Shown: positions 52,141-61,893 of the stretch, piece by piece
Position numbering within the stretch: the stretch's first letter is position 1
How the letters are laid out: each line of letters begins with the position of its first letter
Assembly (NCBI GenBank): GCA_014193315.1
Contig: BJHS01000006.1
Location: 62,001-126,000 of the forward strand
Source: Verrucomicrobiota bacterium
Lineage (GTDB): Bacteria > Verrucomicrobiota > Verrucomicrobiia > Opitutales > UBA953
Reading direction: 5' to 3'
DNA: 64,000 bases
Program-made: the position numbers and the translations under genes
Notes under the pieces: generated by a model
What the model saw: the letters and a program-made list of their open reading frames with translations, nothing else
Database searches by the model: none
Told to the model about the DNA's origin: nothing

Positions 52141-52833
52141 TCACTTCGACACGTCCAGAATCTCCGCCTCGAGCGAGATCAGACCCCGGGCGGCGTTAAG
52201 CCCAAAGGTTTCACTGACACCGGGCTTGGTGGTGACATTCTCGGTGAGGGTGACGACAACCGGCGGAGTGGGCACGTCGACGATGACCGCCTTGTGCAGC
52301 ACCAGTTCAACGGACTGACCGAGACGGGAGAGAGTAAGCGCTTCGCGCTTATCGTCGTAAGACTTCAACGTCCAGCCGTCGATCCGGCGTCCGAGCGGCA
52401 CCCACTGGCGCTTGCCTGCGGCGTCCTCGATCGAGAAGAGTTGGTCCTTGGTCAGCACGCTGTGGAAGAAAGGCATTTTGCTCTTGGCGCGAGGCGACGG
52501 GGCGGTGGGCGTCGCCGAGAATGCCGACGCCTCCGCAGTCGGAGGCTTTCGGTATTCCGAGATGGTCTCCAGCGTCAGCGTGCCATTCTTATTGAGCCTA
52601 GGGGTGAACGTGAAGACCACACCTTCTTCGGCCGAACCGACGGTGATGGTCGTCTGCTTGCCATCGATTGTGATGACCGTGGGCTCAGCATAGACTTCCG
52701 ACTTACCGTCCTTGTCGAGGCGCGTGAACGACGCCTTCACCTTCAGGTGGGTCGGCACCGGAGCCTCCTGGGCGGCGACGGCAACAGTCAGCAGCGCAAG
52801 GAGACAACGAACTATCATGGGGCGAAGAAACAT
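52141..52833 (-). CDS. Secreted protein, paralogue B of a tandem pair (secretin-like plus GspC-like modules)
   Basis: A 230-residue protein with a signal peptide (cleavage about AVAAQ). The N-terminal part (YAEPTVITIDGKQTTITVG, then VFTFTPRLNKNGTLTLE) resembles the short beta-segments seen in secretin-type domains. A Ser/Pro/Ala linker is followed by a module (FHSVLTKDQLFSIEDAAGK, QWVPLGRRIDGWTLKSYDDK, ALTLSRLGQSVELVLHKAV) reminiscent of the HR domain of GspC/PilP. The whole length aligns with the upstream neighbour. Either similarity is by eye only. An inner ATG at 52818 is also possible. Confidence 0.7.
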   Translation of the reverse strand: MFLRPMIVRCLLALLTVAVAAQEAPVPTHLKVKASFTRLDKDGKSEVYAEPTVITIDGKQTTITVGSAEEGVVFTFTPRLNKNGTLTLETISEYRKPPTAEASAFSATPTAPSPRAKSKMPFFHSVLTKDQLFSIEDAAGKRQWVPLGRRIDGWTLKSYDDKREALTLSRLGQSVELVLHKAVIVDVPTPPVVVTLTENVTTKPGVSETFGLNAARGLISLEAEILDVSK

Positions 52834-52842
52834 CAGGTCGGG

Positions 52843-53616
52843 TTACTTGGTCGGGAGCGGCGCACCCTTGAGCACCTCGACCGAGAGGGTGATGGTGGTG
52901 CCGTTGGCGCTACCGATGACGAAATTCTGGCCAGGTTGCACGGTCACGGTGCTGACGACATCGTTCGCCCCCGCCTCGACCACGGATTTATAAAGGGTCA
53001 ATTCCCGCAAGGCTTTCTCCTTCGCGATTGTGAGGACATGATGCTTCTCGTCATACGATTCGACGGCCCAGCCGGCGAAATTCTGGCCGACTTTCACCCA
53101 GCGGCGCGCCCCGGCGGCATCGGCCAATGAAAACAGGCCTTCGGACGGAAGCACCGAATGGAAGACCGGAACGCCATTGCCACCTGCGGTGCGCTCCCGG
53201 CCAGACCGACTGCGTCGCTCGCGCTCCTTGTCGCTAACGGCCTGGAGCTGGGCCTGGGCAAAGGCCGCCTTATCCTGGGCAGAAGTGGGCAGGGACGCGT
53301 GGAGGCTAACGCTGACCTCGCCCGTCGGCAGGACCGTGGGCGTGACGGTAAGTTCCAACTGCTGCGGAGGTGACGGTGGCTGACCCGGCAGCGGGGGCTT
53401 GGCGGGGCCGGTCATGGAGACCTTCCCTTCGGCGCCTGAGGTGACAAGGATCTGAGGGATGCTGAGTATGTCGCCGGGCTTGCCGTCGGGCCCAGCCGGG
53501 GCGGCCACAGTCGCCCTGATCTTCACCTGAGAAGGGGCGGCGGGCGGAGCGGCGGCATCCTGCCCCCAGACAATACCAGGCCAGACGGGAAGTAAGAGCA
53601 GGAAGAACTTACGCAT
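52843..53616 (-). CDS. Secreted protein, paralogue A of a tandem pair (secretin-like plus GspC-like modules)
   Basis: A 257-residue protein with a signal peptide (cleavage about VWGQ). It shares with the next gene the blocks IPQILVTSGAEGKVSM, TVTPTVLPTGEVSVSL, FHSVLPSEGLFSLADAAGAR, RWVKVGQNFAGWAVESYDEK and LRELTLYKS. A Pro-rich linker and a basic Arg/Glu segment (DKERERRSRSGRERT) lie between the halves. It follows the fabG-acpP-fabF group after a palindrome. Function unknown; an envelope or secretion-linked role is inference. Confidence 0.72.
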   Translation of the reverse strand: MRKFFLLLLPVWPGIVWGQDAAAPPAAPSQVKIRATVAAPAGPDGKPGDILSIPQILVTSGAEGKVSMTGPAKPPLPGQPPSPPQQLELTVTPTVLPTGEVSVSLHASLPTSAQDKAAFAQAQLQAVSDKERERRSRSGRERTAGGNGVPVFHSVLPSEGLFSLADAAGARRWVKVGQNFAGWAVESYDEKHHVLTIAKEKALRELTLYKSVVEAGANDVVSTVTVQPGQNFVIGSANGTTITLSVEVLKGAPLPTK

Positions 53617-56050: not shown

Positions 56051-57241
56051 TCAGTAGACGTCGCGCTGGTATCGGCCGTCCTTCTTGAACTGCTTCACCC
56101 ACTCGATAGCGGCCTCAGGCGTCAGGCCTCCCTGCTCGACCACCATCGCGTGGAGCGCGGCATCGACGTCCTTGGCCATGCGCTTGGCATCCCCGCAAAC
56201 GTAGAAATAAGCACCCCGCTGGATCCACCGCCAAAGCTCTGCGGCGTTCTCACGCATGCGGTCTTGCACGTAGACCTTGGTCGCCTGGTCGCGGGAGAAG
56301 GCCGTGTCGAGGCGGGTCAGCGTACCCGCCTTCAGGTAGGCCGCCCACTCGTCGGCGTAGAGGAAGTCATGATCCTTGCGCTGGTCACCGAAGAACAGCC
56401 AATTGGGTCCCTTCGCGCCGCGGGCGGCGCGATCCATGACGAAACTGCGGAACGGCGCGACGCCGGTACCTGGGCCGACCATGATGACCGGGGCGTTGTC
56501 GTCGGCCGGCAGGCCGAAGTGGGATTCGGCGACGAAGATCGGCAGGTCGGGCTCGTTCAGACGAGCGCGGTCGGCGAGGAAACTGGAGCAGACGCCCTCG
56601 CGGGCGCGACCGTTGGTCTCGTAACGCACGACCGCGACGGTCAAGTGAATCTCATCCGGGTACTTCGACGGGGCCGAGGAGATGGAATACAGGCGCGGCA
56701 TCAGCTTCCGCTGGAGCTCAACCCATTCCTGGGCGGACGGGCGGGCCGACGGAAACTCCTCGAACAGGTCGATGAATTCACGTTGCTCTAGCCAGGCCTT
56801 CTTCTTCTCTGGATCGACCTCGGCTAGACGGGCGGCCAGGGCCTCTTTCTGGGCAGGATCGGTCGCCCGTTCATGAAGGAGTTGGACGAACTTATAGGTC
56901 GGCCCGTTCAGCGCCACGCGCCGGGAAAGCGCCTCCCGCAGGGGAATCGCCGACGGGGCCTTGGGGATGGTGACGGCTTCATCGCCCGCGAAACCCGCGG
57001 CTCGCAGCAAGGCCGCGACGGCCGTGGGGTTATTGGTCGGGAAGACCCCAAGAGAATCCCCACACTTATAGGTCAAACCGCTCCCCTGAAGGGAGACCGA
57101 GAAATGCTGGGTATCCTTCTGGCTGGCGAGCGAACTGAGCCGACGACGATCGACCAGCGAGGCAGGGAAAGGGTTGTTCTTATCGAAGGCCACGGCGAAA
57201 AAAGGGATGTCCGCAGGATGGGCAGCCGATGGTATTGGCAA
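56051..57241 (-). CDS. CysJ-type FAD/NADPH reductase lacking the flavodoxin domain
   Basis: A 396-residue diflavin-reductase-like protein. It has FAD-binding (RLYSISSAPSKYPDEIHL) and NADPH-binding (MVGPGTGVAPFRSFVMDR, YVCGDAKRMAKDVDAAL) domains, with the connecting helical domain, and ends in YQRDVY as sulfite reductase flavoproteins do. The N-terminal FMN flavodoxin domain is absent. A TTG at 57241 and a GTG at 57190 are both possible starts. No sulfite reductase hemoprotein is adjacent. It probably passes electrons to an external flavodoxin or heme protein. Confidence 0.85.
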   Translation of the reverse strand: MPIPSAAHPADIPFFAVAFDKNNPFPASLVDRRRLSSLASQKDTQHFSVSLQGSGLTYKCGDSLGVFPTNNPTAVAALLRAAGFAGDEAVTIPKAPSAIPLREALSRRVALNGPTYKFVQLLHERATDPAQKEALAARLAEVDPEKKKAWLEQREFIDLFEEFPSARPSAQEWVELQRKLMPRLYSISSAPSKYPDEIHLTVAVVRYETNGRAREGVCSSFLADRARLNEPDLPIFVAESHFGLPADDNAPVIMVGPGTGVAPFRSFVMDRAARGAKGPNWLFFGDQRKDHDFLYADEWAAYLKAGTLTRLDTAFSRDQATKVYVQDRMRENAAELWRWIQRGAYFYVCGDAKRMAKDVDAALHAMVVEQGGLTPEAAIEWVKQFKKDGRYQRDVY

Positions 57242-57260
57242 CCTTCTTTTGAGCCGCGGG

Positions 57261-57941
57261 CTATTTCCAGACCTTCACCCAGTCCACCTCGACGTCATCC
57301 GGCAGCTTCGACGGGACGAGGTCCTTACGCTCGAAATCCGAGACCCAGTGGGCGAGATTCACATGCATCGCTTCCTTCACCTCGGGCTTGTCGAGTTTGT
57401 GAACGGCCCTGCCGTTGAAGTACCAGGTGTAGGCCTTCTCGGTCCAGAGGAAGCCGTAGGTATTGAACCCCTTCGACACCTGACCGGGCTTGAGGACGAG
57501 GTCCGTCTTCACTGGGCGAAGCTCCCGCACACCCTTGCTATCACCGACCTTGGCCCAGGGGACGAGTTTATCTTCCCCAAAACACTCGTAATAGAGCGTG
57601 GCCGCCGGCGGCTCAGCGGTAACCTTATTGCGCAACATAAAGCCGCCGTGATGCCCGCGCTGGGCGTTGAACCGGATGGAGGCCTCAAAGTAACCGAAGG
57701 CCTGGGTGAACTTATCGCGGGTACTCACCCCGGAGCCCTGCCAGCCATCGGGACGCTCGGTGAGCGCAATGACCAACTTGCCGGCCTTGAGCGAGATCGC
57801 CGCAGTCCCGCCCTCGAAGGTCCACTTGGCCGGGTCGAGGGCCGCGCCATCGAATTCCTCCGAGAAGGCCAGCTTTAGCTTGGACGTAGGGTCGGCCGCG
57901 ACAGCGACCAACGGCAGGATACAATAAATGAGGCGGCGCAT
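57261..57941 (-). CDS. Secreted GH16-fold protein with degenerate active site (copy 1)
   Basis: A 226-residue secreted protein (signal about 1-16) with the GH16 concanavalin-like beta-sandwich: LAFSEEFDGAALDPAKW at the start, GYFEASIRFN, FNTYGFLWTEKAYTWYFNGRAVH and a final VEVDWVKVW. The usual catalytic motif E-x-D-x-x-E is read as A114-T-L-Y-Y-E119 here, so the nucleophile Glu and the Asp are replaced. It may be a binding protein or a distant family with another mechanism. It follows its paralogue by 14 bases. Confidence 0.82.
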   Translation of the reverse strand: MRRLIYCILPLVAVAADPTSKLKLAFSEEFDGAALDPAKWTFEGGTAAISLKAGKLVIALTERPDGWQGSGVSTRDKFTQAFGYFEASIRFNAQRGHHGGFMLRNKVTAEPPAATLYYECFGEDKLVPWAKVGDSKGVRELRPVKTDLVLKPGQVSKGFNTYGFLWTEKAYTWYFNGRAVHKLDKPEVKEAMHVNLAHWVSDFERKDLVPSKLPDDVEVDWVKVWK

Positions 57942-57955
57942 GGCAAGGAAAGGGG

Positions 57956-58651
57956 TCACTTCCAGACCTTAACCCAGTCGATCTGCAAAGGCTCCGGACC
58001 ATTCGTCGGGTCCATGAATTCCTTCACCTTGCCGCCCTCGGCGGTGTGGTGGCAGAACTCCAAGAACATCGGGGTGCTCGGGGTGGTCTTCTGCTCGAGT
58101 CGGTGGACCTTCTTTCCATCGACGTACCACTCGAAAAACTTGGGCGTCCAGTGCACCGCGTAGGTATGGAACTTCTTGTAGGACACGCCGCCGTCGAAAT
58201 CGATGCCGTGCTTGACCGGCCTGAGCATGCGCAAGCCGCTGTTGTCGGCCACCTGCGCCCCCGGGGCGACACGGTCGTCACCCCAGCCTTCGAAGAAGAG
58301 GCGGGCCGAAGGCGGCTCGTCGAGACTGGCGTTGCGCACCTCAAAACGACCCGAGCGACCGCGGGTCTGCAGCATCCGCACCGAAGCCTCGAAGTACCCG
58401 TTGACCTGACTGAACTTGCGGGCGCAATTCATGGTGCTGCTCACCCAAAGTCCGGGCTCCTTGCCAGGCACCAGATTGAGACTGACCTTGCCGTCCTTGA
58501 TCGTGACGGAGTTATGGACGTTCCACTTGGTGGCGTCGATGTCCGGGGCATTGAACTCGTCCGACCAGACAAGTTTCATCTGGGAATTAGGGGCGGCCGT
58601 GGCGACCGATGCCGTGAAGGCCAAAAGGGCGAGGAGACAGAATCGGATCAT
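57956..58651 (-). CDS. Secreted GH16-fold protein with degenerate active site (copy 2)
   Basis: A 231-residue paralogue of the next gene, with a signal peptide (about 1-20). It shows the same GH16 architecture: LVWSDEFNAPDIDATKW, GYFEASVRML, FHTYAVHWTPKFFEWYVDGKK and LQIDWVKVW. The catalytic region reads A116-R-L-F-F-E121, again without the nucleophile Glu and the Asp. The loops around residues 125-160 differ from copy 1, so the binding surfaces may differ. Confidence 0.82.
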   Translation of the reverse strand: MIRFCLLALLAFTASVATAAPNSQMKLVWSDEFNAPDIDATKWNVHNSVTIKDGKVSLNLVPGKEPGLWVSSTMNCARKFSQVNGYFEASVRMLQTRGRSGRFEVRNASLDEPPSARLFFEGWGDDRVAPGAQVADNSGLRMLRPVKHGIDFDGGVSYKKFHTYAVHWTPKFFEWYVDGKKVHRLEQKTTPSTPMFLEFCHHTAEGGKVKEFMDPTNGPEPLQIDWVKVWK

Positions 58652-58717: not shown

Positions 58718-59422
58718 TCAAACCTCAAAAATCTCGTCGATTTCCTTGCGACTCAAGGGCCGGCAGTCGCCGAGAGGCATTTTCCTCAGTACCAGCCCAC
58801 CGATCTGGAAGCGACGGAGTACCTTCACGTGAAAACCGAAGATCTCGAGAAGGCGGCGAATCTCGCGCTTGCGACCTTGGTCGAGGTGAATCTCCAAGTG
58901 CGCCGGGTTGTCGGGATGGCGAATCACCTTCTTGAAACGCAGCATCTCCCCATCCTCCATGGCGCCCTTCAGCAAGCGGGGCGTCAAGGTCGGGTCGTAA
59001 TCACGGTTGAGGATGATTTCGTAACGCTTAATGATGCCGCCAGACGGGTGCATCACCTTGTTGGCCAGCGCCCCATCGTTCGTTAAAATCAGGAGGCCTT
59101 CGGAATCCTTATCCAAGCGGCCAACGCAGAAGAGGCGGAGCGGACGATACTCCGGGGGCACCATGTCGAAGACCGTCTGGCCCCCATGCGTGTCGTCGTT
59201 CGTGCAAAGAAAGCCCTTCGGCTTATTCATCATCAGCACGACGGTCCGGTTCAGCGGCTTGATGTGCTGCCTACGGCAAAGGACCACATCGACGGCGGGG
59301 TCGACCGGTTGGCCGGTCACGGCGACCTTCCCATTGATCATGACGGCGCCCTCCGCGACCAAGCGCTCCGCATCCCGGCGGGAACAGACCCCCGCCTGGG
59401 CGAGGAACTTGTGGATGCGCAT
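58718..59422 (-). CDS. RsuA/RluB-family rRNA pseudouridine synthase
   Basis: A 234-residue protein from the ATG at 59422. An S4 domain ([21 protein letters not shown]) precedes the catalytic domain with the Asp in [18 protein letters not shown] and [13 protein letters not shown]. It modifies 16S or 23S rRNA; RluB is the best guess. It is divergent from folD. Confidence 0.93.
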
Positions 59423-59544
59423 GGGTCCTTGGTCGGGCACGCCCTACCCTTGGGGGGTTTGGGGGCGCAGGGCGAGACAATCACGCACCGCCCTACGTAC
59501 CGACTTTGCTCGCCCTCCCGGGCCGGTTAGTCCTAGTTAAAGGC

Positions 59545-60411: not shown

Positions 60412-61000
60412 GGAGCTCCCACCACCCCTGCCCGCCGTCCCCGCTGGCCTGTGGTGGCGCTCCTTCGCCGCGCTCGCCGACGTCGTCCCGCTCCTGGCCT
60501 TGAGTTGGTGGTTGGCTCAACGCCTCGCGGGCCCGAAGGAACTCGCGGCCCGCGACGCCGTCGGCGCCTTCTACGATCAACTGCAAAAACTTTCCCTCCA
60601 GTCCCAGCACACGGGCTCCACAGCGGCCCTCTGGGACCTGACGTTGCACCCGCCCGAGGCGACTCTTTTGGCCTTTGCCACCTGGTCCGGCTTCCTCGGC
60701 ACCACCGCCCTCTGCGCGGTGGGGGGCGCGCTCACCATGCAGGAATGGCTCGGCAGCGGCCGTACCCTCGGCAAGCGCATCTTCGGACTCCGCACCATCG
60801 ACATCGGCACCGGCGACGGCCCGGGCTTTGTGCCGACCATGCTCCGCTCAGCTTGGAAAGCCGCTTTTCTGTGCCTGCCCAACCCGCTGTTCAGCCTGCT
60901 GGGTATTATCAATGCACACGTGCCGCTCTTCCGTAAGGACCGCCGGGCTTGGCACGACCTTTGGACGCGCACGCAGGTCGTCGAAGATACCGGCCCCTGA
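60404..61000 (+). CDS. RDD-family membrane protein
   Basis: A 198-residue protein from a GTG at 60404 overlapping folD. The RDD pattern is visible as [25 protein letters not shown], with Arg and Asp in the first helix. Two further membrane segments follow, the third region with [15 protein letters not shown] and the final [17 protein letters not shown] proteins are of mixed or unknown function, some linked to ion or osmolyte transport. Confidence 0.85.
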
Positions 61001-61008
61001 AGCCAAGC

Positions 61009-61893
61009 ATGCAAGCCGCCTGGATCATCCTCGGCTGGACCACGGCGCTCATCGCCGCCGACCTGCCGTTGCCGCCACTCGTGGATGGCCCGCCCGCCGC
61101 CGGACGCCGCGTCGCCGTCACGCCCAAGGAATACACAGGCACCCGGGTGCATCATTTAGTCGCTTTGCCTGACGACTGGACCCCCGACTGGAAGGCCCGC
61201 GGCAAGACTTGGCCGGTCATCGCCGAATACACTGGTAACTACTTCCCTGGCACTGGTTCCACTGGCGAGGTCGAAGGCGCGGCGCTCGGCTACGGCGTAG
61301 CGCGAGGCCGGGCGATCTGGGTCGTCCTGCCCTATGTCGCGCTGGACCGCCGCAAGAATGAGGTCACCTGGTGGGGCGATATCGAAGCCACCGTCGGCTA
61401 CGCCAAGACGAACCTCCCCTGCATCTGCACGGAATTCGGCGGCGACCGCCGCAAGGTCGTGCTCTGCGGGTTCTCGCGCGGCGCCATCGGGGTCTCCTTC
61501 CTGGGCCTGCACGACGACGAGATCGCCAGTCTCTGGTGTGGCTTCTGGGCCCATGACCACTTCGACGGCGTGCAGGTCTGGAGCGCGCCCTGGGGCGCCC
61601 CGCTCGCGCGCTACCGGGAGGAAGCCACCGTCCGGCTCCGTCGGCTGGCGGGCCGCCCGTTGCTCCTCAGCCAAGGTTTCACGAACGAGGAGACCCGCCG
61701 CTTCGTCGAGCCGCTCACCAGACCGAGCACGCGATTCCTTCAGGTCGACATGGTCGCTCTCTATGGGAAGTTCCCGAACGAGGTCGTCCAACACCCGCAC
61801 AACGACCGCTGGCCGCTGCGCGACGGCGAGGCGACGAGCTTTGCCCAAGCCTGGTTCGAAAGCGTGACGGGGACTAGGCAGTCCGCGAAGTAG
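61009..61893 (+). CDS. Secreted alpha/beta hydrolase-like protein
   Basis: A 294-residue protein with a likely signal peptide (MQAAWIILGWTTALIAAD). The nucleophile elbow is GFSRGAIG (Ser156), and WCGFWAHDHFDG and HPHNDRWPLRDGEA near the end may carry the remaining triad residues. It resembles secreted esterase-like proteins of Verrucomicrobiota. Substrate unknown. It starts eight bases after the RDD gene and converges on pnp. Confidence 0.8.
   Translation: MQAAWIILGWTTALIAADLPLPPLVDGPPAAGRRVAVTPKEYTGTRVHHLVALPDDWTPDWKARGKTWPVIAEYTGNYFPGTGSTGEVEGAALGYGVARGRAIWVVLPYVALDRRKNEVTWWGDIEATVGYAKTNLPCICTEFGGDRRKVVLCGFSRGAIGVSFLGLHDDEIASLWCGFWAHDHFDGVQVWSAPWGAPLARYREEATVRLRRLAGRPLLLSQGFTNEETRRFVEPLTRPSTRFLQVDMVALYGKFPNEVVQHPHNDRWPLRDGEATSFAQAWFESVTGTRQSAK

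Follow-up and report, generated by a model that had tools for sequence, protein, structure and literature searches.

A tandem array of predicted secreted GH16-fold proteins in a freshwater Opitutae genus, with an apparently single ancient loss of the catalytic nucleophile

The window (the whole 64,000-nucleotide stretch of Verrucomicrobiota DNA analysed here) carries two adjacent genes, P0001 and P0002, whose products retain the GH16 fold and lack the GH16 nucleophile and its assisting Asp. On balance, we consider both to be secreted, non-catalytic GH16-fold proteins whose copies have diversified and most likely bind glycans. The family tree indicates that the nucleophile loss had a single ancient origin, before the genus radiated, and codon comparisons indicate that both genes are under purifying selection and are not decaying.

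Results

Gene organisation

The genes, their relevant parts and their constant neighbours are as follows.

57261 to 57959, minus strand: P0001, predicted secreted GH16-fold protein without the nucleophile, downstream-type slot (ORF, Pfam, AlphaFold)
57956 to 58651, minus strand: P0002, predicted secreted GH16-fold protein without the nucleophile, upstream-type slot (ORF, Pfam, AlphaFold)
57585 to 57602, minus strand: A-T-L-Y-Y-E of P0001 (residues 120-125), at the place of the GH16 E-x-D-x-x-E
58289 to 58306, minus strand: A-R-L-F-F-E of P0002 (residues 116-121), at the place of the GH16 E-x-D-x-x-E
57894 to 57941, minus strand: predicted Sec signal peptide of P0001, MRRLIYCILPLVAVAA (read from the sequence by eye)
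58592 to 58651, minus strand: predicted Sec signal peptide of P0002, MIRFCLLALLAFTASVATAA (read from the sequence by eye)
58718 to 59440, minus strand: RluB-like pseudouridine synthase, a constant flank of the array on its upstream side (synteny anchor)
56051 to 57241, minus strand: CysJ-like FAD/NAD(P)-binding reductase, a constant flank of the array on its downstream side (synteny anchor)

P0002 comes first in the direction of transcription, followed by P0001, and the two proteins are 35% identical over their length. The RluB-like gene, P0002, P0001 and the CysJ-like gene lie on the same strand with short gaps, and hence are likely to share one transcript. Signal peptides suggest that both proteins are secreted, and the family consensus (a hydrophobic N-terminus followed by Ala-Ala) fits that of P0001. 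The ATG at 57941, before this signal peptide, appears a more likely start for P0001 than the GTG at 57959. Elsewhere in the window, an esterase/depolymerase-like secreted ORF of 314 aa (60949-61893, plus strand) has no Pfam match, is syntenic in many relatives and evolves fast, and an adjacent pair of ORFs (52141-52833 and 52843-53616, both minus strand) likewise has no Pfam match.

A variable array at a constant locus

The family was matched in 23 of 38 relatives' genomes, all of the window's genus. Strong matches (E below 1e-70) were limited to this genus in a 400-genome draw of the class and in another of the phylum, where the next-best matches reached about 114 bits or less. A search of the taxonomic family found members in two genomes of a neighbouring, sister genus as well (G433, locus L103; G430, locus L104). 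Beyond these two genera the profile matched bacterial GH16 enzymes, in collections without animal sequences, and we found no relatives in viral contigs. In all, 136 distinct family domains were gathered. The named records with members are freshwater Opitutae MAGs and the assemblies BS8 and BS10 (Opitutae/Verrucomicrobiota); a few member MAGs titled as other organisms are probably mislabelled bins. Text searches of the literature for this family in freshwater Opitutae found no paper describing it.

At every locus carrying both anchors, the array lies between the RluB-like and CysJ-like genes. It holds one copy at four loci, two at eight, three at two, four at 13 and five at six, and its slots are orthologous across species. 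At one locus (L135, in a 1.4 Mb genome) RluB and CysJ adjoin and the junction is empty. The tandem pair of the original prediction is thus two adjacent paralogues, as stated, but represents one instance of an array of zero to five genes. Among 40 genomes of at least 80% completeness, those below 1.6 Mb have fewer copies than larger ones (p 2e-4, uncorrected for relatedness and with some of the genomes in several contigs). In the sister genus, L103 (1-2200) shows an inverted RluB-like gene beside a single E-x-Y-x-x-E GH16-like gene, and at L104 the CysJ-like side alone is visible. A CysJ-like match at locus L136 (G133:C5:274644-275822) contains one internal TAG; the gene may be broken, or the stop may be an effect of the alignment edge.

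The GH16 fold is retained and the catalytic motif is absent

Both proteins match the GH16 Pfam family (PF00722) above its curated cut-off of 22 bits (P0001, E 4.3e-12, 46.3 bits; P0002, E 1.1e-11, 45 bits). AlphaFold models built from family alignments gave mean pLDDT values of 92.6 for P0001 and 91.2 for P0002, and both show the beta-jelly-roll fold on comparison with GH16 enzyme structures. The best solved structure for the P0001 model is 6jh5 (VIA Z 24.4, 2.0 Å over 199 residues) and for the P0002 model 6xqf (VIA Z 22.6); the family profile matched 5wut at E 4e-21. That both copies keep the GH16 frame, as originally predicted, is borne out by Pfam E values of about 1e-12 and by models that best match GH16 structures and no different fold.

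The same prediction placed A-x-L-[YF]-[YF]-E where E-x-D-x-x-E should be, with nucleophile and Asp absent, and the motifs listed above agree. No E-x-D-x(x)-E, canonical or bulge-free, was found anywhere in P0001 or P0002, and across orthologues the pattern occurred just in loop sequences such as ENDKE (five entries), off the strand. In alignment A2 the nucleophile column lacks Glu in all 91 members of the genus, whereas all 34 of the nearest non-array GH16s checked keep E-x-D-x-x-E, so the absence of the motif is not due to chance. A further GH16 match in this genome, the third (G000 C16:4011-4763, contig 16), is canonical: it keeps V-E-I-D-I-L-E, is located away from the array, has orthologues in the genus and occurs once in this genome. 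It is very improbable that P0001 and P0002 are ordinary GH16 hydrolases with a misread motif, as the Pfam match above cut-off might be taken to mean, given that neither contains the motif and that the alignment runs without gaps from the sister-genus E-x-Y-x-x-E to a conserved Gly. Judged by its motif, the family is of GH16 descent yet should not be counted among GH16 enzymes.

The final (acid/base) Glu was originally predicted to remain, and a phylogeny with a count of its conservation was proposed as the check. The count does not support this. Glu is present in 48 of 91 genus members, and many paralogues have Ser, Gly, His, Gln, Val or Thr at this site (position 0); the residue is Glu throughout the P0001 slot and Glu or Asp in the P0002 slot. 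Given this count and at least eight changes on the tree described below, we rejected the final Glu as a kept functional residue. Separately, the second array gene of three loci (L099 6600-7292, L100 7292-7984 and L109 1416-2108) reads G-E-L-F-F-E/D, with two acids spaced as in bulge-free E-x-D-x-E GH16s and Phe in place of Asp, a possible regained two-acid site.

Order of the losses

We built a phylogeny of 58 sequences from which the motif columns had been removed beforehand. On this tree the nucleophile state changes once and the final Glu at least eight times. The sister-genus members L103 and L104, which lie at or beside the locus and read E-I-Y-V-A-E and E-L-Y-I-A-E, branch outside the 50 other family members (support 98/97). 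The family tree has two old halves, with P0001 in one and P0002 in the other; the P0002 clade has support of 100/100. Together, the tree and the L103/L104 motifs imply that the Asp was replaced in the common stem or in the ancestor, that loss of the nucleophile came at the base of the genus and that the final Glu drifted later. The original prediction of an old, kept loss therefore holds for the nucleophile and Asp, with a single nucleophile change and purifying selection, but not for the acid/base Glu.

Selection on the array genes

Comparison of P0001 and P0002 with six relatives gave dN/dS values of about 0.06-0.29, overlapping those of neighbouring genes; one further value of 0.000 reflects saturated dS, and several dS values are near or past saturation. 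In all comparisons dN/dS is well below 1, and none of the listed family matches has an internal stop codon. Hence it is hard to credit that these genes are decaying duplicates of a former laminarinase heading for loss. Such a fate would fit the missing catalytic residues, the missing array in several genome-reduced relatives and the empty junction at L135, but we reject it on dN/dS, and up to five copies in ordered slots have been kept over long divergence. That the loss is not random decay, as originally proposed, is upheld by the purifying selection.

Against the sister genome L065, dS is 0.10-0.17 over P0001 and the CysJ-like gene (56051-57941) and 0.44-1.06 in the other compared genes; this low-dS stretch is likely a recent homologous-recombination tract.

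The former cleft

In 34 nearby GH16s, positions -5/-3 relative to the final Glu are E/D (0% hydrophobic) and positions -4/-2 are hydrophobic in 100%. In contrast, the 91 genus members are hydrophobic in 90/93% at -5/-3 and in only 34/54% at -4/-2. L103 and L104 match the enzyme pattern at -5, -4 and -2. The phase flip of this strand suggests that the GH16 beta-bulge was lost along with the nucleophile, in which case T121, Y123 and E125 of P0001 would now face the cleft.

For three concave-sheet strands, cleft-facing residues were assigned by strand alternation. The mean entropy of this putative cleft face is 2.99 bits, compared with 1.69 bits for the opposite face (Mann-Whitney p 1.5e-4) and 1.72 bits for other strand positions (p 1.1e-5). 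In enzymes the active site is normally the most conserved part; here no part of the strands examined varies more than the cleft face, which makes a conserved cleft chemistry unlikely. Column statistics revealed no polar cleft-face residue conserved family-wide, and an alternative conserved active site on this face was rejected. Conservation falls mostly on core and loop residues and includes H204, E/D208 and K/R211; by strand alternation H204 lies on the face opposite the cleft. A few cleft residues are fixed within slots, namely Glu at position 0 in the P0001 slot (E125), Arg at -4 in the P0002 slot and His at 0 in another, and the other cleft positions vary both inside and between slots. The Trp at the usual subsite position has apparently been lost, as read from the alignment.

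These patterns bear on two alternatives. The first, a different chemistry using the remaining Glu and other residues (a lyase, a transglycosylase or a one-Glu hydrolase), had been raised by the original prediction and now appears unlikely. The acids at position 0 of the P0001 and P0002 slots, the E-x-x-x-E/D spacing of the distant G-E-L-F-F-E/D slot and the conserved H204, E/D208 and K/R211 could serve such a reaction; against it stand the many substitutions at position 0, a cleft face with no polar residue common to the family and the placement of H204 away from the cleft.

The second and main rival to glycan binding is a structural or envelope role, in which the secreted GH16 fold persists as a stable framework serving protein-protein contact, a matrix or a surface layer, its cleft having lost any specific binding. 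We regard this as a serious though lesser possibility. Greater variability of the cleft face than of the opposite one, even inside slots, conservation chiefly in the core and loops, and housekeeping neighbours all fit a scaffold, but the slot-constant cleft residues do not, and the retention of up to five copies with their slot identity suggests a distinct task for each.

Discussion

Our preferred reading, non-catalytic glycan binding, would have arisen as follows. An ancestor at the RluB/CysJ-like junction would first have lost the assisting Asp, giving the E-x-Y-x-x-E that persists in the sister genus; the nucleophile would have gone next, and with it the catalytic strand's phase and probably the beta-bulge. 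Tandem duplication afterwards would have produced up to five paralogues, each keeping a fixed slot across species and lining the old cleft with residues of its own. The proteins may then bind polysaccharide from algae or phytoplankton, or else glycans of the cell's own envelope; separate copies would be tuned to separate ligands and may hold substrate near the cell or sense it. Glycan binding by P0001 and P0002 is plausible on this evidence, and ligands may differ between slots. Some observations count against it: cleft positions that vary also within slots would equally fit a weakly constrained face, loss of the subsite Trp could weaken binding, and the array lies amid housekeeping genes, outside any polysaccharide-utilisation locus.

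The closest enzymes are the E-x-D-x-x-E laminarinases and beta-1,3(4)-glucanases (6jh5, 6xqf, 5wut), the branch whose beta-bulge separates it from the E-x-D-x-E GH16 enzymes (PMC6827312). The family resembles them in fold and size (about 200 residues), in the GYFEA and NGK strand motifs and in its predicted secreted single domain, but differs in lacking nucleophile and Asp, in its inverted strand phase and in a cleft face that is variable and not conserved.

Loss of catalytic residues with fold and selection kept is a feature that the family shares with the non-catalytic GH16 recognition proteins. Insect beta-glucan recognition proteins are non-catalytic GH16 proteins that bind glucan (PMC2375007; PMC6827312). 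Like them and the inactive GH16_4 proteins, which bind and do not cut, our family has the GH16 fold with at least one catalytic residue lost; the beta-GRP/GNBP proteins, however, belong to animal immunity, and some carry an additional glucan-binding region at the N-terminus, whereas this family is bacterial. Catalytic-residue loss within GH16_4 is scattered (about 9%) and not monophyletic, and outside GH16_4 it affects only about 1% of GH16 members in a subfamily survey (PMC6827312). In contrast, the present family is one bacterial clade with an apparently single ancestral loss and tandem slots. It also differs from Rv0315 of Mycobacterium tuberculosis, a secreted GH16-fold protein reported to be inactive (PMC4606783), which keeps both catalytic Glu residues (Glu171 and Glu176), is inactive because of an open groove and has no tandem family. 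Non-catalytic GH16 proteins are already known; the present case differs in being a single bacterial clade that combines one ancestral loss with visible intermediates and an ordered tandem array.

More tentatively, the array may be a genus-specific ordered repertoire, founded on one loss of catalysis and a strand re-phasing, in which each slot recognises a different glycan; we hold this stronger form to be possible but doubtful. If true, it would be a bacterial parallel to the glucan-recognition proteins of insects. The steps of the loss are still visible, from E-x-D-x-x-E in outside relatives through E-x-Y-x-x-E in the sister genus to A-x-L-x-x-E in this genus, and a dead enzyme that has been multiplied and kept offers a tractable case of a hydrolase turning into a non-enzyme repertoire. 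Counts of GH16 genes in freshwater genomes of this group would overstate their capacity to degrade polysaccharides.
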